Below, one piece after another: positions 5,334 through 52,801 of a DNA stretch of 64,000 nucleotides. Each line of letters starts with the position of its first letter. The stretch's first letter is position 1. This DNA comes from Paramacrobiotus metropolitanus (Eukaryota > Tardigrada > Eutardigrada > Parachela > Macrobiotidae): contig NW_026570222.1 in the NCBI RefSeq assembly GCF_019649055.1, positions 2,232,001-2,296,000 of the forward strand, given 5' to 3'. Under the pieces are notes generated by a model. The model was not told the DNA's origin. It ran no database searches and was given only the letters and a program-made list of their open reading frames with translations. The position numbers and the translations under genes were made by a program.

Positions 5334-6517
5334 ATGTTTCCCTGGGTAGCCAGGAGGCAGTTTCGTAGCAGCAAAGTTGTTATAAAAAAGCGGAAGAAAT
5401 TTAAGAAGAGCGCGGTGCGTTCTATGGTTTATGCTTCCGCTCTTTATTTTGCGGATGAATTGGATCGGGAGCTTGAGAAATTTTATGTACGGCATGAACT
5501 AGACTTGAAAACTATGCCGCGCGATCGTCTGCGCCACTTTTCCGAATAAAATCCTACGAAGATTTTCAACGCCTGTCTCAGTGTCTTCAAATTCCGGACA
5601 CAATAAGCTGTGATAACCGGTGCCAAGTATCTGGAGAATTTGCACTTGCTGTGGTTCTGCGTCGCCTTGCTTACCCAAATCGCTGGCGTGACTGCGCCGA
5701 TTTACTTGGAAGAGAAGCAACTCAGTTATCGAGGATATTTAATGCAACCATAAATTTTCTTTATGATAAACACGGCCATTTGTTGCGATCTCTTGGACAA
5801 CCTTGGCTGGGCGCTGATAACATCGCGGCATATGCAGCAGCTGTTCATCGGGCGTCGGGCGGAAGATACGGTAACCATTTTCTATAAATGGTAAGCAGGG
5901 ATGCCTGCTCATCTGGCTAGCCAGATTTTGTGTTATTATTTAGATAACTGTTGGGCATTTGTGGACGGAACTGCACGTGCGATTTGTCGCCCAGGAAGAC
6001 TGCAGAGAGTATTATTCTGGACATTACCGCGGACATGATATCAAATTTCAGAGCTTAGTTGCTCCGGATGGCTTAATTGTAAATATGTATGGCCCTTGCG
6101 AAGGACGGCGGCACGATATGTACATGCTCGGTGCATCAAAATTACGACACCGATTACGTTTGCGGAATCTTATTTGGGGAAAAGATTACTGTATTTTTTG
6201 GGGACAAAGGGTACAGTATAAGTGCTGAGGTCCAGAGCCCATACAAAGGCGGCAATATAAGCGAAGCGGAGATTGCCTTCAACCTCGTCATGTCAAAATG
6301 CCGATTGATCGTGGAATTAGGTTTTCAGCGTATATGCACGCAGTTTGCATTTGGAAATTACCGCGAAAATCAGAAACTGTTTTGGCAGCAATCTGCAAAA
6401 GCATATTTGGTCTCAGCAGTTCTAGCAAACTGCTTGACTTGCATGTACGGCTTTGAACTTGTTTTTCAAAAGTTTGGCCTTCAGCCGCCGTCTTTAGAAA
6501 CATACTTGCGCTTTTAA
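5334..6517 (+). pseudogene. PIF/Harbinger-type DDE transposase, frame-broken
   Basis: This encodes the DDE_4-type nuclease of PIF/Harbinger transposons, related to host HARBI1, which would cut and paste its own element in the nucleus. The N-terminal part reads as the family's helical region (RRLAYPNRWRDCADLLGR, LYDKHGHLLRSLGQPWLG). A short intron (about 5873-5945) is followed by the first Asp in FVDGTARAICRPG, then APDGLIVNMYGPCEGRRHDM (second Asp), then FGDKGYSISAEVQSPYKGG and the C-terminal segment ending LETYLRF. The frame breaks at three low-complexity points: T4 at 5538-5541 (one base short), a GA run at 6004-6009 (two short) and T6 at 6194-6199 (one extra). Each correction is small and restores family similarity, so this is either a young pseudogene or a copy with assembly indels. 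Confidence 0.85.
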
Positions 6518-10060: not shown

Positions 10061-10097
10061 AATTCAAAACAAGTCAAACACCGGGTCAAATTATCGC

Positions 10098-10120
10098 CTT
10101 AACCATTAGGCCACGCGGCC
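10098..10120 (-). repeat. short copy of tRNA-like repeat end
   Basis: On the minus strand this reads GGCCGCGTGGCCTAATGG followed by TTAAG, matching the 5' part and A box of an arginine tRNA. The downstream 50 bases have neither an anticodon stem nor a good B box, so it is a tRNA-derived remnant rather than a gene. The same sequence ends the two longer repeat copies at 10340 and 19546. Confidence 0.55.
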
Positions 10121-10339
10121 AACAGACTTGTAGTTACAAAAAATTAAATAATATGGGGCTGCGAAGTAGTGCTATCTCATAATCGCATGTTGACTGTATG
10201 TCAATAGAAGTACTGCACATACTCTACAAGCGTGTGTCAAAATAATGGTATAATATAGATAAAAAATATATGTCTCCGTCAAATTTGTTTAATTTTCTCT
10301 GAAATAAATTTTAACCATTAGCAAAATGAATTTTAACCT

Positions 10340-10450
10340 TAACCATTAGGCCACGCGGCCATTGTATACGTTCAGAGACCACTCAATCGAAGCACTGCTA
10401 CAATGTGAACTGTAATCAGCTATTGAACTATGCTTATATTCATTTCCGGT
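10340..10450 (-). repeat. 111-bp dispersed repeat, copy 1 (tRNA-like end)
   Basis: Nearly collinear with 19546-19656 over 111 bp, with roughly nine of ten bases identical by eye. On the minus strand it runs from CCGGAAATG to a tRNA-Arg-like GGCCGCGTGGCCTAATGG. It contains the final ten codons, stop codon and start of the 3' untranslated region of the kinase/CH gene that ends at 10420. Probably a SINE-like or MITE-like element. Confidence 0.75.
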
Positions 10451-13400
10451 GCTCGCTGTTCAGCGTTGGGGAACTGCGCCAGATACGTCATCATGCTCTG
10501 ATCGTCAGTGTGGGGGTTGATCATGTCCTCCGGGCTGAGCAGCTGTGGCACACCAAACCATTTCTCCGCCAGGGTCATTGCCACAGTTGCACTGTGTTCT
10601 GCATCAGACGGCGCCCAGTTCTGCCAGTCCTCGCAGAGATCTAACAAAGACAAGGCAGTTAAAGCGAGTATTAAGGCGAAATGGCGTGCTTGGGGTACTC
10701 CGTAACGATTTTTGAAAAAATTACCATTGATACAGTAACACGTAAGCTACAGGATGGCGTATCGGAAATAACAATCGGCCGTCTCCACTTAAAACAGTGA
10801 ATTTTTTTCAACAACCGGTGGGTGAAAGAAAACAGTGAATTAAACCTGCCTTGATGCAGTTGTTTCTCTGTTCAGTAAAAGCTGCCGCTGTTTAGTAGCT
10901 TTGTTATTTACACAGATGACCACTGTAAGTACACAGATGACCACTCCCGGTCGTCCATATGCGGGCTAGCTGGCCAGTGGCCACTCTTGTATACCCGGTC
11001 ACCGCACCAAACGAAAAACCACCATAACCAGTAAAAAGGTGCCTACCTACTGGACTGCCGGACAATAGCAGTACAAAAAATATATCATGCAAATAAGTAC
11101 ATACAACAAGGTCAAAGGGAATGTCAAAGTACTCGTACCTGCTTTCATGGCGTTGACTAGCGCGTCAAACACCATGCCGTCCGCCCAGTCGGAACTGAAA
11201 TTACTAATCGACAAATTCGGCACTTTTTTGTTAATCCACGTAAGGAGACGCTGTTTGGGCGTACGTTTCTTCTCCTGCCCTTCACTATCCGCATCGCCTT
11301 CCCAGTTCGGCTTGGACAGGGAATAATGCGATATCAAATTCCACATTAATACTAAAATTTGATCTGGTCTCCCGTCAAGGATGTCACTACAATCTACACA
11401 AAATACAGCAGTCAATTGTCAATGTAGCGTAACACTGTCAGTCGATGCTAGATTGTCGGAAACTGCTCGAGAATCTTATGATGGATAACTGGCAATTTCA
11501 TATAAGTTACTGTTGACGAACACTTTTCCCGCCAACACCATATAAGAAAGTGTTAAAACGACGAGACAATTACGTCTATTAACACCCTGTTTTACCGTAC
11601 CAATAACTCCGAGATCCACGCCTTCCTCCTCGAGAAATGCCAGGGCTAGTCTGATATTCGCCAATTTTTTGGAGCGTATCACAGCCTTTTCTGTGTGTTG
11701 TGGTAAAGAGCGGCCGCTAATGACTTTCAGTAGAGCAATAAGGCGGTGCCCGTCACTAAAGTCCTTCTCTAGATCATTCACACACAGTTGCACCTTCTTC
11801 AGCTGCTCATTGGCCCAACGCACAAAGGTTTTCTTTTGATAAAACTTCCACATGGGAGACGGGAACGACTGAGTGGTTCGGCTTCCCTTTTGCTCCAGCT
11901 CCTGTGTTCGACGACGGTCCATCTCGCGTTCACTCCGCAGTTCGTCAACCTGACTCTGCAACTTCTGCATGGCGTCAGTCATCTGGTCCCTCTCTTGTTT
12001 GGTAGTCTGGAGCAACTTGGAGAGGCGAGTAACTTCCGCCGCGGACTGGTCTCGCTCTTGGCTGGCTTTTCGGAGCTGCTCATCGTGCACTGAACAGAGC
12101 GCCCGTAGGGAAGCGGCTTCACCAGACGTCTGCTGTTGCTTGCTGGTTTTGGAGGCCAGTTCCTGCTCCAGTAGCGTTATACGGTGCTGGGATTCCGCGT
12201 CCACTTTGAGCCGGTCGCGTTTGGCTTCCTCCAGTTGCTCTTGAGCATGATCGCGGGCGGTTCGGAACTCGCCACTCTCTTTGCGCAGAGTTTCAATCTG
12301 CTCTTCGCAAGCCGCAATCTTCTGTTCCAGATCCCGCCTGTCGACGGTATCATGGCTCGGCTCTATATCCGTCTGACACTGGACACAGGTTTTTTCCTTA
12401 CTCAATCCGTCAAGCTTCTGTTTCAGAAGACCTTCATTCAGCAGTCCTTCATTCTCCACACTCCGCTTACCGATGTCGTCCTGAAATTAAAATTTTCATT
12501 TCAAAAACTTTTTTTGAAGGAATATGCTTACGGCTTTGCACAGTGTATTAAATATTTTTGTAAACGGTATCACCGACTACTACTTTGTTTATTTCGTATA
12601 CACTCTGTATTTCGTATGATGTGGTGACTTGATAGCATATCACATAAAAACTTGTTAGCTGCATACACGTACTATAAGACGAGGTTTGCAGATGAGTTCT
12701 AACAACTCCCGGGTCATAATCGATGGTTGTTCACTAGAAAACTTTTGGAGAATCTCTTCGGGGGACATTGTAGGCACTCGCTGATAAAATGCCGAATATG
12801 GCGATTGTTTGCCAGTTTTCAAGAAGCGCAAAACTGCCGTTCTATATTCCGCTACCAATATCTGATCATCAAAAACTCCGGTGTGATGTGGCTCATGGTC
12901 GATGCGGGTGGCTGCGTCTTCCAGCAACGGCGTATCAGTTGATACGCGAACCGGCTCCTCACTATCGCAACTGGCGTTGGATACGGAGGAATTCATACTT
13001 CCGTATGCAGTTGCTGCGGTCGAAAAAAGTTCTCCTTCAACGGCATCTGCATCTTGGGCAGCAGTTTGAAAAAATCCCCGCAGCTCAGCGTACTTCGGCT
13101 CTTCATCGTATTTCAAACTTTGGATGGATCTGAAGAAATTCATAATCTCAACAGGGGCGCTAGTAGGGAAGGTCACACGGAAGAAGTCATCTTGACTGGC
13201 TATAAACCTGAAAATTCCAGTAACATCAAATCAAATCCGTATACATACTTGTACAGACCGTAAAATCGCAACAGCATCAAGAAATCACCACATACCCTAT
13301 TTTCAAATTGTGCACAACAGCGGCATCCTCACAGCGCGACCATGGCAGTGCTCCAGTGAGCCATTTGACCAGATTAAATCCCAGTATCTGCATATCACCT

Positions 13401-16400
13401 CGCCGAGATGGAACTAGAAAAACATCAGCCTACTGTAGTGGCAAATTTGAATATTAAACTTACAGCTTACACAAAAAGTGTTTAGTGGTCCCTGCATCTA
13501 TATGCCGCTGGCCATTTGTACAAGTACCGACTAAATTATTTTAACTTCTGGAGATAGCATTCCCTTACCCGCTCTCTTGTGAGCATCACAACTGGTCAGC
13601 TCAAGAGTTCCGGCCAGTGGAGCATCCGGCTTTTCAGCATAGGAAATGTGCTTGTTATCGTCCATAAACCGTTTGACCATTCCGAAATCAATCAGATACA
13701 CTTGCAAAGCGTCCGCGGGACTGAGACCAGTCATCAGATTGGTGGCCTTCAAATCCGCATGCGCATATCCCTGATTATGGATATATTCCAGCGTATCCAA
13801 CTGCAAAAATAGTGCAAAAAAAGTTGTCAGAGGAGAAACTTCGCAAACACAAAAGTGTACAATACAAATCGTACAATACAAATGTACAATGCAATACAAT
13901 ACAATACAAAAGTGTATCGTACAATACAAAAGTATAATACAATACAAAAGTACACAATCTTAAATAAAACCACCGCAAAAGAATGTTTTAAGGGTTCTCG
14001 TACCAGCTGTAAGGCCAACAATATCACGCATTTCCGTGAAAGCATTCCGTGACGTTCATCCAAAATCTGCTGAACGCTCCGGTCTAAACGGGGTAAAATA
14101 AGCCATCGCAAATTTTTCCCACGGACTTCCACAACACCACTAGAAATGTATTCCATGATGCCGACAGATTTGATGCTGCGTTCACGCCGGAATGTAGCAA
14201 CTGTAAATTCCATCGCGATATGTGAGAACAACCATTGGTATCCCATTATTCATTACAAGACGCCGATAACCGGTCGTTTCTAATTACTTTTAAACTAATT
14301 TCCTATATATTCGTTTATCATACAAGCGATGCCACTCCTTAATCAATAAGCCCTTAATTGTGCTGATGCAGCTTATGACTAGCAGATAAAAGCTTACTTG
14401 ACTCAGGTTTCGCAACTGCCCTGTAGAAAGCCTCCTCATTACGCGATACATCATCCACCCGATTCTAAAGCAGCAAAAACCTGCAAATATGTCATATCTA
14501 ATGTTGCTGCATCGCCAGTACCAGTTTCAGGACATATTTCGCCGCTCCATCTGCAACTGATCCGGTTGTCATGTCGGAAACTATAAAATACCGAAATTAC
14601 AGATTGGCTGTCGTTAACAAAAGGACAATGTATTTCCAACTGTGTATCCAAGTAGTCAAGAAGAACCGTGCTCACCTAGATACACATCCGCAAAGCATCC
14701 CTGCCTAACAGCAGATCCCGTACGCCAAGTTTTATTTCCCGGTTTGTCCTCGATGATGTGTCCATCCTCCAGCCGTTCATCTTGTTCACATCCACGAGCC
14801 GTAGTACCTAAGCCACATGTTCTTTAATGATTTTTTTTATCAAACTAGCGCACTTTCAGTGCTTCCGATTTGTATACAACAGAAAAGGAAAAAAGTTGGC
14901 AAGCAACACTAAGCTTTTGTTTTGTTGCATATTTCGTCCTGAAACAACCGCCAATTACTTGCCTACGATCCCAGCAGCTGATTGTGCTAATCCGACCGAT
15001 CTGGATGCGCACTCGGATCCCGGTAGATTACTGAGATGACACTCAAAAGGAAATGTTGCAACGGGAGAAAGCGAATTCTGGATAAATGCTGAGATTTGAG
15101 CAGGGTCCAGAGATATACTTGTATCACTTGCTGAGCAGGGTAACACCACCTGCAGTTACAGTTTAATCAGCATAGATTATCTTTCGCACAAGGGCAGACA
15201 TTACGTTCGAAAGAGGCATGCGTAGTTTTATGTAACATCGGTTCTGGTGAAAAGTATGCACTACGTAAACAACAGGACGGATCATAGAAAATCGTTACGG
15301 AATTTTGGGATTCATATTTGTTTGGACAACTAGTAATCAGCTTATAAATTCAGCTCTTTTACATAGAATACTTTACAAGATAACGCTCAACAGCACTAAC
15401 CTGCCCGTTATCATCTGCATCTACGAGGCCCGTGACGGGCGTTGTGGTGTCTGAATCGACCGGCTTGATTCGCAGACGTCGTTTCACAGGGCTGTGCGCC
15501 ACGGGGGAAGGGCGTTTGAATGAAGTATCGTCCAAATGTGAGTCGATGTTTTTCTTACTACGCAGCGAATATTTACTGGTAGATCTCTTCTCTTCGCTAT
15601 TTGCGACCGACTACCAAAAAACAAACACATCCAGTAAAATTCAAGTTTTTAATGGGCGGTGCGGGAAAAAGTTTAACGCAGACAATGCTCTCATATAAGA
15701 ACCCCACCCGTGTCAGCTGCGAGACAAACGACGACACTGTATCCGGACGCTTGCGTTTTTTCGTCGCAGCAGAACTAGACGGGATTGAAGAGCTAGACAG
15801 GACCGACGAGCCAGACGGAAACGCCGAGTTTCCGGGGACGCGCGGGTCGACACTGTACCATTTTCGCGTCGGCTGCCGCATGTCCTCCGTAGCCGACACT
15901 GGCACAGCACCCCGCTCACAATCTCTCAAAGTCCATGGTGACTTCTTCCAAGGGCCCATTATGCCATCGTCATCGCATCGTTGGAATATCATAAAGCGCT
16001 GTGGCATAAAACCTTGAGGCAAAATTATCAGGTGATTAATTAACGATAACCTTGGTTAATCGGACACCAGCAGGTAACCACCGTTGGTTATACCATCTAA
16101 AAAATTGTCGACGAAGCGTAGCCTTATAACGTAGATATGGCTTGAAAACATTGGTAGCTTTAACTCACTAATATAGCAAAGTCGAGCATTATTACCCTTT
16201 TCGTAGTCCGCCTTCTCCAAGCCATCACTCCATGCTGCACAAGGATATTGATAGTTATTTCCTGTCTTGCCTAACAAGTGGTTCTTGCAGGCATCACGAT
16301 TCCATCCCCACGCAACCTTTCCACGTTTGCCGCAATAGGGGCATTGATAAAAGTAATGCCCATCTTTGTACAGACGCCATTTGAGCAATTCTGCTTTTGA

Positions 16401-16771
16401 AAGGTTTGCCTGCAACAAAATTGCCCGGCTGACACTGACAGCGATTAACCAAGTTTTAAGGGACTAGACAATACCCTGGATTTCTTGCTGCTGTTGCTGA
16501 TGTCAACAGATTTCTTGCGGATGACTTTCCGGTTGCCTGTTGGTACGGGAGACTTGCTGCTGTTGTTCCGTTTTCTCTGTTTAGACTGACGCTTTCCGAT
16601 ACCATCATTATCCTCGGGACTCGCCGGGTGGTGTCCCACACGGGGCGATGATCTAGTAACCTGGTCAAATTTTACGCCATCGGCGACATTCAGGATGGAC
16701 GTGCCGTATTCCATAACACCCGCGTCGGCTCCAGGTGAAGCGTTACTCGAAATTCGACGATTAGTGGCCAT
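10420..16771 (-). CDS. VRK-type kinase fused to coiled coil and tandem CH domains
   Basis: Fifteen exons join in phase to about 1288 codons: 16771-16475, 16409-16169, 16012-15708, 15610-15401, 15149-15032, 14807-14676, 14580-14522, 14464-14398, 14200-14004, 13800-13569, 13413-13296, 13207-12673, 12480-11601, 11393-11139, 10640-10420. Residues about 1-390 are basic and Ser-rich with a zinc-finger-like exon (YQCPYCGKRGKVAW, then CKNHLL). The kinase spans about 415-700: glycine loop GSAVRQGCFADVYLG, lysine in KYVLKL, glutamate in NEEAFYRAVAKPES, catalytic HADLKATNL, IDFG, and VRK-type PVEIMNFFRSIQSLKYDEEP. Then come a coiled coil (about 850-1030), CH1 (FYQKKTFVRWANEQLKK) and CH2 (TPKQRLLTWINKKVPNL) as in filamin. 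The catalytic residues look intact. The product could couple chromatin/nuclear-envelope-type kinase activity to actin, which is inference. No Met begins the coiled-coil exon, arguing against a separate gene. Confidence 0.75.
13856..13960. repeat. ATACA-type microsatellite in kinase intron
   Basis: About 100 bp of imperfect repeats of AATACAAAAGTG and ACAAT type lie in the intron between the exons at 14200-14004 and 13800-13569 of the kinase/CH gene. A simple-sequence repeat; no further role seen. Confidence 0.8.
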
Positions 16772-36340: not shown

Positions 36341-36806
36341 AGATCCCGAAAATATTTAGAATAAACATTATTTTTGAACAGCTCTTTCGATTCTCTCATT
36401 CTAAGATATGATTAAAAAGATTAAAATTGTAGCGGGAAGTCATCTATATTACAGTCTTTTGTTTCATAATGACAGTTACATGTATGATGTATGCGCGAAT
36501 GATATTGTTGAGATTTTAGAACATAAGACGGAGGAACCAGGAAGACAATATAACAAAGGCATATTGAAATTAGACCCAGGGAAAATGTTTCTCTGTTGCA
36601 GCTGTTTGCTCGTGTTGGCGCTTCTTAATTCTTGTTACACTATTAAAAGTCTTCCATAGTTGTTTAAATCAGGCGATATACAAACAGCCATAAAACTCGG
36701 TATTGTGTTTTTATTTGCACAGGACGGATAGCGCTGGAAGGTGACGTTTTAAGTGTTTACGTATAAGTACGCCCTATCTATGCAGCGTTAGAAACCGCTC
36801 ACAGGA

Positions 36807-39415
36807 ATGGAGACAGCAACCGACCATAACAGCATTTCTGATGTGGAAATGGATCTGAATGATTTAATAAAAGCCCCTCTTCCGTTATGCCAGGAACATA
36901 ACGAGCCATGTGTTTATTACGATTGTGGCGGAATGACCGCGAATACTTTAATATGCACAAAATGTCGAACACATGGAAAATGTTCGGGCGATATAAAAAC
37001 CATTACGGAGATAGTACAAGATACAAAGAATGCCATTCTTGGTCTGCTACAAACAGCAAAAAGCCAATTAAACCAAGACGATGGTCCAGTGCTAACGTCG
37101 CCCGATTATTTTCTGCCGCCTTCGCAAAAAGCGCTCAGCCGCAGTTTAAACACCGACACCGGTTCGCGTACGGTCTCCCAACGCCAGAAACACATTACGA
37201 TCCACGCGGCCGAATGCCGGCGGAACCGGTTGCGCTCCCTGTGCAGTGAAATTAACAAGCAGTTGGAAGAGAATTCCATTGCATCCATATTGACCATTAG
37301 GTCGAAGCTGATTCCTGAGTTATACCGAATGTTTCATGAATTCAGTCATCCCGTTGCCAAAGTGGAAAAAATGGCTGCGCCAAATCGCACTTTTTTCCGC
37401 CGATCCGCATCCAACCGGCTGACGTCAGGGACCGCTGCGAATTCATTTGGGTCCAATGAGCGCAAGGGATTTATTTGCGCCATTACCAACGGCATGTCGA
37501 AGGATGGGCTTATTAACGCGCTGCCCGGAAAAGAGGTGAAACTGCGTATGTTCCTCTGGAATCGCGATGTGCGTGGCCAGCCGCTGCAGGCCGATAATCT
37601 CACTGTTACGCTATCAGCGCCCAAGGAGTCCCCCGAGGACAGCGTCCATCATGAGGTCAAGCGCAAGCAGCTGCGGAGTGATTCATTTGAAATCACATTC
37701 ACTCTGCACAAAGAGGGCTGGTACAATCTCCATGTGCAGTTGTCAGGCCATCCGGTCAGCAACAGTCCTTTCTATGTGTCCGTCAAGAGTCCGGTGATAC
37801 ACGAGGAGGCCGTACGTGAGTCACTCTTCTCGGCGTGTTCGGCGCTGACTGCGCGGATGAACGGCCGATCGCCGTCACAGAAATCGACAGGATCAGATGG
37901 ACGACGCAATTCTAAGCTGTCGGAGCTGGATGAAGACAGCTTGGCTACTGGGAGTGTCGGCTCTTTTGGCAGGGAACCGGGACACTTTTTGAATCCACAA
38001 GGAGTGTGTGTAACGGATGAAGGGATTATTGCGGTCACCGACAGCAACATTGGATGCATCCAGGTGAGGCAAAAAGAACATTGCAGCACTTACGTACAGA
38101 TGGTAAAGTACAGTATTATGTAATACCGATTATGACCTACTGGCAAAGTAATCCTACTCTACAAACATGTTTCTTTAAGATATGTTTAATAAGTAATGAA
38201 AATCTTAAAACGTTCGTATCAGTCAACACTATTTTGCTGCATTTTCATTTCTTAATAGTTAACAAATTATGACCTTTTGTACTTGATAGCTCTTTGGTCC
38301 CAATGGAGAGCACCTCAAGAGATTCGGCGATCGTGGTCGCCGTCCTGGTCAGATCTTTCGTCCGACCGGCATCGCATTTGTTCCGGCTCGTTTAAGCAAA
38401 TCCACTTCTCCCTGTTTCGTGGTGGCCGATTATGAAAATCGCAGCGTATTAGTATATGGTACGGATGGACAGTTCCTATCCAGTTTCGGATCAGCCAAAT
38501 TGACTGGTCCCAAAGGAATTGCTGTAGCCTTGAATGGAGATATATTGGTCGTGGATAATCGCTCAAATAGTGTCCTCGTGTTTCGCAACGAAAAGCTGTT
38601 CAAGAAAATCTGGTCGCCTTCGTCCACAGCTGCTCACTTGGCTGGTCCACACTATATTACGGTAAGTGGAAAATCGAGGAAGTGAAATACTGAAAAATGT
38701 GACGGTAAAATTATATTCTTATTAAGGTTTCGGCGGAGTGTGGCGATATCTTCATTTCCGACTTCCATCATCATACCGTTAAGGCAGGAAATTTGCGTTT
38801 TGTAGATAAGCAGCTGGGACGTAATTAACACATCTTTCTGTTAGGTCTTCGATGCGAATTACAACTACCGGTTCAACTTTGGGTCTTTCAGCGCTGAGGG
38901 AGGAATGGGCTCGTTCAGTGGACCAACTGGTGTGCCGCTCGCACTGCGCTTTGTCTCACTACTTTTTTATAACACTTTTTCCTTTACACATTAGGTATTG
39001 CGGTGGATCATCGTGGAATTGTCGTTGCTGATTGGGGAGGCGGGAGAGTTCAAGTAAGTCGCCTTCTGTAATGGAGTGTTCATCCTGCATTTATTGGAAT
39101 TCTGAATCTTTTTTTCGATGCTTTGGAAATGTAATTTTAACTGTCTCCACATATTTTTACAATGACGTTATTTATCAAATGGTTTTGTATTCAAGGTATT
39201 TGACAGTCAAGGCAGTTTTTCTGCATACGTCACGGCGCTTTCCAAACCGCTATATGGACCGCAGGGGCTTACAATTGGGCCGGATGGACAAATTTACATT
39301 TGTGATTCCGGTACGAGTATTTGTTGACAGTGCTAACTTTCATTTTGTCTAATTACGAAATTCGATAGGTAACCATACGGTTCGAATTTATCGTCATCCC
39401 CTCGCTCAACTTTGA
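36807..39415 (+). CDS. TRIM2/3-type NHL protein lacking RING
   Basis: Seven exons (36807-38063, 38290-38661, 38727-38783, 38845-38929, 38995-39053, 39196-39310, 39369-39415) join in phase to 663 residues. An N-terminal B-box-type zinc site (LCQEHNEPCVYYDCGG, ICTKCRTHGKC) is at about 28-65, a helical linker follows, then a filamin-type Ig domain (LPGKEVKLRMFLWNRDVRGQ to SPFYVSVKS, about 215-330), then six NHL repeats from about 385 (FLNPQGVCVTDEGIIAVTDS, HVNFGPNG-like turns, PQGLTIGPDGQIYICDSGNH). Relatives TRIM2/3, Brat and LIN-41 are ubiquitin ligases or RNA regulators; the NHL propeller binds RNA or protein. No RING cysteine cluster precedes the B-box, so ligase activity is doubtful unless an upstream exon exists. 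One intron uses a GC donor (38784). Confidence 0.9.
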
Positions 39416-48935: not shown

Positions 48936-50140
48936 CTGCGAAGCCACGCATAATGTGCATAAATGTATTGACAACTTGTTGCTGGGAATTATGGTACTAC
49001 TCTAGCTGCCCAAGCATTTGCACTTTCAATACACATAGCGACAGAACAACCACAGAAATGGTAGAAATCTTACCAAAACACACTCCAAAAATGCTTCCAT
49101 TTCCGAAATATGCGATTCCCTGGTGAAAATGTAACATATCTTCACGAAAGGGTTTACTGAATCTAGTTAAGTATTTTAGAACGCTGTAGTAATGTAGCGT
49201 ATATGATGTTTCCCAAAGTTGTATGTACCTTACCTTACAGTACATATCCGTTATTAAATTACGAACGGCAAAACAGATCTAAGTCATTTCGGCACTTACA
49301 AAAGAATTCTGGGAATGATGTGATTTGCACTATAATCCGCTAGAACTTCGTGAAGGATAATATCGACTTCGGAATCGTTCGTCTTCGTTGAAGCGTTGTC
49401 CATGCAAGGTGAGCATAACTGCGAGTACTGCCGTACAACGGGATGCTGATGAACGGCATGCCAGGCAGGATAATCCAGATCCTTCGGTAAAGAACATTCC
49501 TTTAAGACCTTCCAAAATCGGTTTGGCATATTAATCACGGGTGGTAGAAGTCAGAAAACGGAAAATCAGAAATCTTGTAAATCTTTTGCTGCAGAAAACC
49601 AGCAGCTGATTTGAATAGTGCTAATTTTGAGGTGATCACCAGTGAAGAGGGTTTGAAGACTGGAGACTGCGGAGAGTGCAGTTGTATAAACTATAAACTA
49701 AACTGCCTCCCCGTCCCGGGTACCGGTGACGACATCTCGTCTGTTGGTTTTGTTTGCGTTTTTAAAAAAAATCTTTTGTGCGATACCGGATACGACTTGT
49801 CTTTCTATTCTGTACAATCATTACGGTCTTTTTCAATCTTTTTCAATGTAAGAGTCGTTAAAGACGGTTTGAAGCACAAATGGTATTACTATTGAGGTTT
49901 GTAGGTACTTACGTATTTGTCGATTATACTGGCTCTTCTTACTGAAAGCGAATGTCTACAACACACAAGTTACAAGTGAATTCGAATATCCGGTTGAATA
50001 TGCGCTCGACCATTCCCAGTCGAAAGCTTCTTTGGAGAACTCTTGGTTCTGCTGCCTGATCCGAAATTATTAATTCCGCTCAGCTACCCTTGCCGAAATG
50101 CGTGTACCGTTCCTGAACAACCCGACAGCTGTTGCGGAAT
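48936..50140. other. region with possible 5' exons of INPP4 and POMGNT1 promoter
   Basis: Minus-strand open stretches at about 49096-49208 (YLTRFSKPFREDMLHFHQGI) and 49296-49540 (LPKDLDYPAWHAVHQHPVV) have splice-like ends but I could not fit them in phase. The stretch from about 49.6 to 50.1 kb shows nothing beyond short frames and should hold the POMGNT1 promoter. Confidence 0.35.
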
Positions 50141-52801
50141 ATGTCCGCGATTCCCATGATGCGACGAAGCAAACTGAAATCTGCCTTATGCGTCATAGTC
50201 TGTTTCTCCGTCCTATCTGCGATATGGTATTTCGCGTTTGGGATAACCAAAAACTGCTCTGAAAACGCACCGGTTAACGACGGTGTTAATGTGGAGGAGA
50301 AGTCGCAGAAATCAGACAGCAGAAAGTCTGCTCTAAACATTGGCGTGATATCGAGCAGAAGCCAGTTCCTGTTACAGGTTGACGGCAAAGAGATCATCAA
50401 CGATGAGGAGCCAAAGCGGAGTCGTGGAATGCATGTCGCGATTCTCGACAAAACGACTGGACAGTGCACGGCATACAGAGTATTTGACACGTACCTCCCG
50501 GGAATTTCCGACACCATGTTGCTGCCTTTTCTGCTGAGTATTCCGGAAGGCCGAATAGTCGTTGTCGGGGTGAAAGATGAAGGGTACGAAAAATTGTCTA
50601 ATTCTGCATCCGTGCAGATGTGTTAAGTTAAGAACTCGTGTACATCTTTAACGGTTTTAACGATGAATATCATCGTTGGTATCTGGACGAAGGTGTGTTG
50701 TAACGTTGTGTTTTTGCTATGATTTCAGCTGCACTATGCTGTACTGGGAACAGCCGTACAGTACATGCAGTAATTAATTTTTATAATGAATGTGTACCGT
50801 ACACGCACCTGACCTGAGTAAATCGTAAGCAGCTAGCGGTTGACACATTTGCAGGTTTTTTTTATAATTGGCTACTTAATCGTTGAATTCAATAAATTTC
50901 TCGCAGATACCATATGGTAGCCCTAGACACTACTTAGTAAACAGGAGTGATTGAATTCAGTGTTTTAAGCACTTATGCAAACTAGACGCTTCTGCTTAAT
51001 GCTTCTATTGCACTTCAGCTCTTTCCACTTTGGGAATGCAGCACGAAAACTATTCGCGGCGTGGGGTTCAAGTTACGCGGGAAATCTGCAGTGGCGCGAC
51101 ATGTGGATTTTTATTGCTGTCAAAGTACTGCATGGTTTCATCCGCCTGGGAGAATCCTTTACGAAGGCACCATCGTTCTCCACGTGGGCATTGCCGGTTA
51201 CGCTAGACTACGTTATGGAGTTGGATCCGATAATAGTACGCTGGAATTGTTCCGGTAGATCCGTTAAAAGGTTACGAGAATTTTGCGAGCACACTGATGG
51301 ATATCCGGAAATTTGCCACTGTGATAATCCGGAGCCGGTAACATTCTTCCCCAGCCCGCTTCCGGAGAGAGCATTTGTTGAAAAAGGGCGGTCGATGATT
51401 CCCGTAGGAATTATTGCTGGTAATCGTCCGTTTTATCTGAACACCATGCTTCGGACGCTACTGAGTACTGCGGGTGTTGATCCGCGGCTGATAACGATTT
51501 TTATCGATGGTTTATGGGATGAGCCAGCCAGAGTGGCTCGTTTGTATGGGCTTTCTGCCGTGCAGCATATCCCTGGTGGTCACGGTAATGCTCGTATCTC
51601 GCAGCATTATAAATCCAGTTTGACCACAATGTTTGCCCGGCACCCGCTGGCAGAATATGCTATTGTTCTGGAGGAAGACTTGGAAGTTAGCCCAGATTTC
51701 TTTCATTTTGTCGTCCAGACTGTACCGTTGTTAAGGGAAGATGCGAGCTTGTACTGTATTTCAGCATGGAATGATCTGGGTTACGAGCACTCAGTAGGTG
51801 ATCCGCAGTTGTTGTACCGAGTGGAAACTATGCCTGGTTTGGGTTGGGTTATACCGCGCAAGTTATTCGTGGATGAATTACAGCTGAATTGGCCTTCACC
51901 GAATTTTAATTGGGACTGGGACATGTGGATGCGGTCTCCTGCTATCAGAAAAGGACGAGAGTGTATCGTCCCAGGTAAGATGCGGGTGTTCACACCCTGT
52001 GAGCGCAGTGTTATGTGGATAACACCTGCTTATTGTTAGTTGGAGTTGGATCCGTTTAGATTCTCAGGTTAAGTTATAAATAATATTTGCAGTCATTTCA
52101 AGCGTTAAGAAATACGCAGAACAAACCTCTTAGTGGCGCATTTATTTGTGCATCATGATGGGCTGAATGCTACAATAAAATTGTTTCTGAATTGCACACT
52201 GGTTTCTTTCTGAAAAATTTCCTAACTAATACTGCTTAATAAATTTTTAGTCATTGTTACAATGTGCTCAAATGATTGTATCCGGATCTGTATGATTGCA
52301 GATATATCTCGAACCTACCATTTTGGAGCAAGCGGCTTGAACATGAATCCCATCTTTCAGACCATTTATTTCGAGCGACATGCCGTATACAAGGGGCCTC
52401 TCAAGGATTTACATCTGACGGATTTAACCGAAAACGGTTATGAACGGAAGCTTCGTGATCTCTTATCCGTTGCAGTTCCTGTCAATCATTCGGTTTCGCC
52501 CTGTCGACCGGACTTTTTTCCTGCTGTTTCTGATAAAACTTTATCGGTTTTTATTCGAATGGATAACTCTTCCGATTTTAAGACCTGGTTAGAATTTTGC
52601 CGGTGTTTGAAGATTTGGGATCTGGACCAGCGTGGAAGTCATAAAGGATTGTGGAGGTTTTTTTCTCGGCCAGGGCAAGCAGTAGTTGTGATCGGTGTTC
52701 CTAGTTCTCCATATTCGAAGTTCCTGCCCAAGGGAGTGCAAGTAATTGATCTCGTTAGTGCAGTGGAAAGATTAAGTTCCTATACACAAGTTCCTAACTG
52801 A
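50141..52801 (+). CDS. POMGNT1: POMGNT1, O-mannose beta-1,2-GlcNAc transferase
   Basis: Golgi type II enzyme that extends O-mannose on alpha-dystroglycan. Exons 50141-50583, 51019-51974 and 52302-52801 join in phases 2 and 1 to 632 residues (human 660). The order is a short cytosolic tail with basic residues, a membrane anchor (SALCVIVCFSVLSAIWYFAF), an ILEI-type stem domain (RGMHVAILDKTTGQCTAYRV, FDTYLPGISDTMLLPFLLSI), then the GT13 catalytic domain. The latter contains VGIIAGNRPFYLNTMLRTLL, ITIFIDGLWDEPARVARLYG, the metal-binding motif in AIVLEEDLEVSPDFFHF, YCISAWNDLGYEHSVGDPQL, LLYRVETMPGLGWVIPRKLF, NWDWDMWMRSP and DISRTYHFGASGLNMNPIF, ending in IWDLDQRGSHKGLWRFF. The main catalytic exon is unusually long (956 bp). 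Frame intact. Confidence 0.97.

Follow-up and report, generated by a model that had tools for sequence, protein, structure and literature searches.

The minus strand of the 64,000-nucleotide stretch of DNA analyzed here (the window) carries a VRK-type kinase followed by a coiled coil and two CH domains, which raises the questions of whether these parts belong to one gene, where they came from, and whether the kinase is active. Exons joined by hand using splice signals, reading frame, and the junction proposed in the first-pass annotation gave a 15-exon, 1302-codon frame from an ATG at 16771 to a stop codon at 10420 (Table 1), as expected from the earlier statement that all 15 exons keep frame. 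The NCBI record LOC129590475 (Paramacrobiotus metropolitanus; Tardigrada), compared after the exons had been joined, is letter-for-letter identical to this model, and a protein search with residues 405–1302 returned it as a 100% match; the record, an unnamed protein, is a computed prediction and does not prove that a transcript exists. The order of VRK kinase, coiled coil, and two CH domains on one strand, also proposed earlier, was borne out by Pfam and PDB comparisons, in which the VRK and tandem CH matches far exceed chance, and by the identical NCBI model. We consider it very likely that positions 16771 to 10420 encode one gene, and the predicted fusion is well supported at the level of gene model and homology.

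An assembly artefact joining unrelated scaffold pieces appears extremely improbable. Excerpts of a 2024 paper on P. metropolitanus report a one-base misassembly in one gene, as well as 72.9% completeness with several scaffolds unevenly covered (PMC11191345), but the pieces of the gene are diverged paralogs rather than copies of their sources, the join between coil and CH1 lies within one open exon (exon 13), and the frame is kept across all 1302 codons.

Table 1. Features of the chimeric gene, with positions in the window.
Feature	Positions	Strand	Basis
Whole chimeric gene, coding part (1302 aa, 15 exons)	10420..16771	-	Identical to LOC129590475 protein (P0001)
CxxC...HxxG...CxxW finger-like module, from aa 111, exon 2, similarity into exon 3	16196..16376	-	Genome search
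KKRKR, nuclear-localization-like basic cluster, aa 255–259	15747..15761	-	Pattern only; putative function
VRK-type kinase domain, aa 415–720, exons 6–12	13066..14778	-	Internal exon lengths and phases match C100 VRK gene
R439, replacing first ATP-loop glycine, RQGCFADVY (GQGGFADVY in C100)	14704..14706	-	VRK alignment
Linker, aa 741–851, where C100 VRK has short tail and stop codon	12673..13005	-	C100 comparison
Intron 12, 192 nt, GT-AG, phase 0 (junction)	12481..12672	-	Splice signals, frame
Coiled-coil piece, aa 852–1046	11896..12480	-	Related to two collinear stretches of ELKS/CAST gene on C270
Filamin-type CH1, exon 13 part, from aa 1061	11601..11853	-	PDB/filamin comparison
CH1 end and CH2 start, exon 14; flanking introns at filamin positions, phase 1	11139..11393	-	Filamin-locus alignment
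Rest of CH2, exon 15, to aa 1292	10453..10640	-	PDB/filamin comparison

Several other elements were observed in the window. The tRNA-like word GGCCGCGTGGCCTAATGGTTAAGG occurs twice on the minus strand just past the gene (10337–10360 and 10097–10120); ARAGORN predicted no tRNA, and the copies are perhaps a tRNA-derived repeat. A DDE_Tnp_4 transposase fragment is located at 6083–6517, and the open frames at 36792–38685 contain NHL repeats and a filamin repeat. An ILEI domain followed by a GNT-I match at 50117–52039 presumably represents a POMGNT1-like gene.

The junction at intron 12

The kinase and the coil meet at intron 12, whose donor (ATA/GTACGT) and acceptor (TTTCAG/GAC) are both in phase 0, as first annotated. 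With a weight matrix trained on a small set, the 21 other introns of the fusion gene and of its VRK paralog on C100, the donor at 12672 ranked third among 191 GT/GC sites and the acceptor at 12481 first among 136 AG sites in a 1.6-kb stretch. Both sites are modest and neither is strong; the donor score (5.63) is near the low end of the training introns (5.51–11.45), and the acceptor scored 7.54 (training introns, 3.52–13.47). The start of exon 13 corresponds residue for residue to an exon start of the ELKS gene on C270, with phase 0 in both, the C270 boundary being placed by acceptor and frame rather than by annotation; because of this coincidence, the acceptor is very probably a real internal splice site. 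A captured internal exon requires an upstream donor, and the VRK exon, which lacks the stop codon of its C100 counterpart, ends in one, suggesting that the 12672/12481 junction is probably real. A 98-residue query from the linker upstream of this junction matched nothing else in the genome at E ≤ 1.

It is quite improbable that a VRK paralog and a coil/CH gene are two neighbors merged by gene prediction. The gene model is a prediction; the unspliced VRK frame runs for five more codons to a stop at 12655, and intron 12 contains both an AATAAA and an ATG (12664) that opens 38 codons. Against such a merger, only 192 nt separate the two parts, exon 13 opens at what is an internal exon boundary in the related ELKS gene, and no intron 12 donor apart from 12672 is among the best 8 of the 191 in the stretch. 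In addition, exon 13 encodes its first Met (residue 1018) only after 166 residues (the coiled-coil exon had indeed been described as lacking an initiating Met), yet the stretch before it is ELKS-related and constrained, and the sole coil-plus-CH match among 7998 scored candidates (~248–789 aa) was a flesh-fly CH-domain protein with 52% coverage. By this protein search and the splice-site and Met data, a stand-alone coil/CH gene is unlikely; the coil/CH part could possibly have a short alternative first exon within intron 12. Likewise, a short VRK-only isoform, ending through the intronic AATAAA after read-through to the stop, is possible; as evidence for it the AATAAA is weak either way, since one of the 21 other introns contains AATAAA and four contain ATTAAA.

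Sources of the four parts

While the fusion itself holds in gene model and homology, its description as a product of two sources had to be extended to four, adding an ELKS/CAST coil and an N-terminal finger-like module. Each part was searched against the 169.8-Mb source genome.

For the kinase part, Pfam reported Pkinase at residues 492–666 (E = 4.4e-12), and the best matches were VRK1 (E = 1.7e-57), VRK2 (5.2e-48), and VRK3 (3.8e-41), followed by CK1-like kinases (1.9e-26); by sequence match above other kinases, the domain belongs to the VRK family. The 25 matches in the genome comprise six in the fusion gene, five on C100, and 14 weaker ones elsewhere (24–38% identical). The C100 gene encodes an ordinary 416-residue VRK and has a stop codon of its own. 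Exons 6, 7, 9, 10, and 11 of the fusion gene equal C100 exons 3, 4, 6, 7, and 8 in length (132, 59, 197, 232, and 118 nt), exon 8 is one codon shorter than its counterpart (67 vs. 70 nt), and phases agree across exons 6–11; both genes also have a GC-AG donor before fusion exon 6 or its equivalent, the sole GC donor in each. The dN/dS between the two is 0.219/0.952, and with Hypsibius VRK1 as outgroup, 60 changes are unique to the fused kinase and eight to C100. On these comparisons, the kinase part arose by duplication of the ordinary VRK gene of this genome and is evolving fast.

The CH pair gave two CH stretches by Pfam (E = 1.3e-35), with filamin-B (actin-binding domain, E = 2e-63) and filamin-A as best PDB matches, which identifies it by homology as a filamin-type tandem CH domain. 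Fourteen matches were found in the genome (three in the fusion gene, three each on C203 and C140, and five weaker); C203 and C140 are filamin-like loci in which a CH pair is followed by open frames that resemble filamin repeats by eye, and both introns of the fused CH pair share position and phase (1) with these two loci. The pair is identical to the C203 locus at 148 of 238 positions, with a pN/pS of 0.219/0.768 and 49 unique changes in the fusion vs. eight in C203 (outgroup, flesh-fly protein P0005). No Ig-like filamin repeat (PF00630, E ≤ 0.01) follows the pair, and the protein ends 10 residues past the CH match.

The coil search returned four matches in the genome, i.e., the query itself, two on C270, and one on C107; the two C270 matches are collinear (E = 2.4e-8 and 1.9e-12, whole-genome search). 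C270 (L049) and C107 (L050) carry near-identical ELKS/CAST gene pieces, one of them near a contig end, representing haplotigs or a duplicate. The C270 gene is assigned to ELKS/CAST, the family of ERC and Bruchpilot, by its Pfam Cast matches, the best of which (E = 1.3e-18) lies in an upstream exon and weaker ones in three others. Since coiled coils are alike in sequence, its rod exons match further coiled-coil families as well, and Cast ranks only fourth (E = 6.4e-6) for the exon that aligns with the start of exon 13; for exon 13 of the fusion itself, Cast was absent among the 17 families at E ≤ 5. The first part of the fused coil aligns with the start of one C270 exon and the second part with the next exon, the two meeting at a similar RMxQLEQQLA-type motif, where we infer an internal deletion. 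The dN/dS values of the two coil parts are 0.483/1.541 and 0.381/1.233.

The N-terminal part had 15 matches in the genome, five to itself and 10 elsewhere. After re-alignment, all 10 other places carried the CxxC...H...G...CxxW pattern (11 rows, with one place appearing twice; two weak rows without the pattern were not counted); these copies are on C238, C7, C54, C57, C111, C117, and C32. No Pfam family reached the cut-off for the window exon, and the module is possibly a lineage-expanded family.

Dating the pieces by synonymous change was attempted and abandoned; since dS is 0.95 for the kinase and 1.2–1.5 for the coil and the CH part is saturated (pS = 0.77), no order of assembly can be given. 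The fast evolution of the kinase (60 vs. 8 unique changes) and CH (49 vs. 8) parts is as compatible with relaxed constraint as with new function. A decaying chimera without present function, as this acceleration might suggest, nevertheless seems unlikely: the frame contains no stop or frameshift, dN/dS is well below 1 in kinase and coil, the CH part retains the pN/pS given above, and the fusion-branch dN/dS of the kinase is ~0.4 by rough arithmetic (changes split 60:8 and dS split evenly, with no fitted model).

State of the kinase and proposed mechanism

The fused kinase retains K467, E478, H570, D572, K574, N577, D594, and G596, and thus has the K, E, HxD...N, and DFG residues expected of an active kinase. 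Against 34 VRK-like reference sequences from the protein searches (the distant P0039 and P0040 were excluded), it keeps 46 of 56 near-invariant columns, compared to 54 of 56 in C100. The 10 missed columns include two also missed by C100, one Met column outside the aligned piece, and seven clear changes, four of which sit in the β3-αC loop beside a one-codon deletion, where the alignment is uncertain. This loop is altered, and the activation segment carries H618→L and G632→R. At the first ATP-loop position, which is R in the fusion, the reference VRKs have G in 30 cases, A in two, and S in one with a poorly aligned start, and one is truncated.

The sequence RQGCFA fails the (G/S/A)xGxx(G/S/A) ATP-loop rule, which, according to excerpts of PMC2639636, is violated by 41 of 49 predicted human pseudokinase domains and by 16 active ones (~4%); the same source describes Ryk as inactive although its main catalytic residues, but not its ATP loop, are kept. 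By this rule, the loop suggests impaired ATP binding. With the catalytic residues kept, the ATP-loop glycine lost, and some active kinases known to break the rule, both a kinase and a pseudokinase are possible. The earlier proposal of a kinase tethered to actin therefore stands as regards the tether, which is plausible by homology, while the kinase, having lost the first ATP-loop glycine and other near-invariant VRK residues, may be weak or a pseudokinase. The location suggested along with it, at the nuclear envelope or cortex, is hypothetical.

We give slightly less than even chances to one specific form of the one-gene reading, in which the VRK part would be a pseudokinase docking or decoy module, as proposed for vertebrate VRK3 and vaccinia B12, and the protein an actin scaffold. 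Besides an ATP loop that breaks a rule broken by most predicted human pseudokinases and few active kinases (PMC2639636), the altered β3-αC loop and the two activation-segment changes point in this direction, and B12 provides a precedent for a pseudo-VRK acting on VRK1 (PMC9175622, in part). Against it stand the retention of K, E, HxDxKxxN, and DFG, the few active kinases that violate the loop rule (PMC2639636), and a report that VRK3 itself phosphorylates BAF (PMC13030254, in part).

Overall, the explanation that we favor, and judge somewhat probable, is a single chimeric gene whose product has a VRK fold, is anchored to actin, and is weak or inactive as a kinase. Filamin-type CH pairs are expected to bind actin and such coils to oligomerize. 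The gene would have been assembled at the DNA level, introns included, from a VRK duplicate, internal ELKS/CAST exons, filamin actin-binding exons, and a multi-copy finger-like module. For the mechanism, we see the chances as evenly balanced: translated from a predicted single mRNA, the protein would most likely bind F-actin through its C-terminal CH pair and form a dimer or oligomer through the coil, so that the VRK fold at the other end would be held on actin, where it might either phosphorylate local substrates weakly or, if kinase-dead, serve putative VRK1 partners as a docking or decoy module.

Comparison with known proteins

The first-pass annotation knew of no family combining VRK and CH domains, and the protein searches (~8000 scored candidates each, within a length range) returned no other fusion. 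A CH domain was found on one of 37 proteins matching the kinase part (precomputed Pfam list), and the kinase-to-CH query matched four proteins; in both cases LOC129590475 alone carried both domains. A second fusion in the same genome was rejected, as the C100 VRK has its own stop and none of 34 CH matches is on C100; a fusion in Hypsibius exemplaris was also rejected, as its VRK1 (P0002, 822 aa) matches the kinase only and has no CH. P0002 has an odd N-terminal part with a weak, sub-cut-off ricin-lectin match and is perhaps a merged gene model. In the open literature, judged mostly by title, no report was found of a VRK fold joined to a CH, filamin, or actin-binding domain.

The predicted gene clearly exemplifies how exon shuffling at the DNA level can form a new gene in an animal, with recognizable sources that persist in the same genome and share its splice positions. 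If expressed, it would couple a VRK fold to actin and allow tests of how a duplicated kinase changes once tethered. We regard it as rather doubtful that the protein is the first of the VRK family to be incorporated into the actin cytoskeleton, as a lineage-specific chimera that anchors its finger-like module, VRK fold, and oligomerizing coil to F-actin; if true, VRK1-type control of chromatin and the nuclear envelope (BAF, histone H3) could be coupled to the state of actin, perhaps as cells shrink upon desiccation.

Compared to VRK1 (the C100 gene and human VRK1), the fusion has the same kinase fold and catalytic residues, and its exon structure is also like that of C100, but its kinase has lost the ATP-loop glycine, and a linker, coil, and CH pair take the place of the short basic tail and stop with which the C100 VRK ends. 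With filamin it shares the tandem CH actin-binding domain and the intron positions of the genome's two filamin-like loci; the CH pair is C-terminal in the fusion, without the Ig-like repeats that come after it in filamin. The likeness to ELKS/CAST consists of a coiled-coil stretch and one exon boundary, while the fusion holds just a shortened piece of the rod. The VRK fold is common to the fusion, VRK3, and vaccinia B12, the last of which we take to be a comparable VRK-like pseudokinase, with a degraded ATP loop stated for VRK3 alone. We know of no CH domains in VRK3 or B12. The degraded ATP loop is thus shared with VRK3, which, unlike the fusion, has also lost the DFG aspartate (PMC2639636, in part). 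A further parallel is offered by the 'rogue kinases' of a six-genome survey (PMC4177888), whose main text contains no VRK, calponin, or actin; as in the fusion, a kinase of a known subfamily is placed in an architecture seen in no kinase subfamily.
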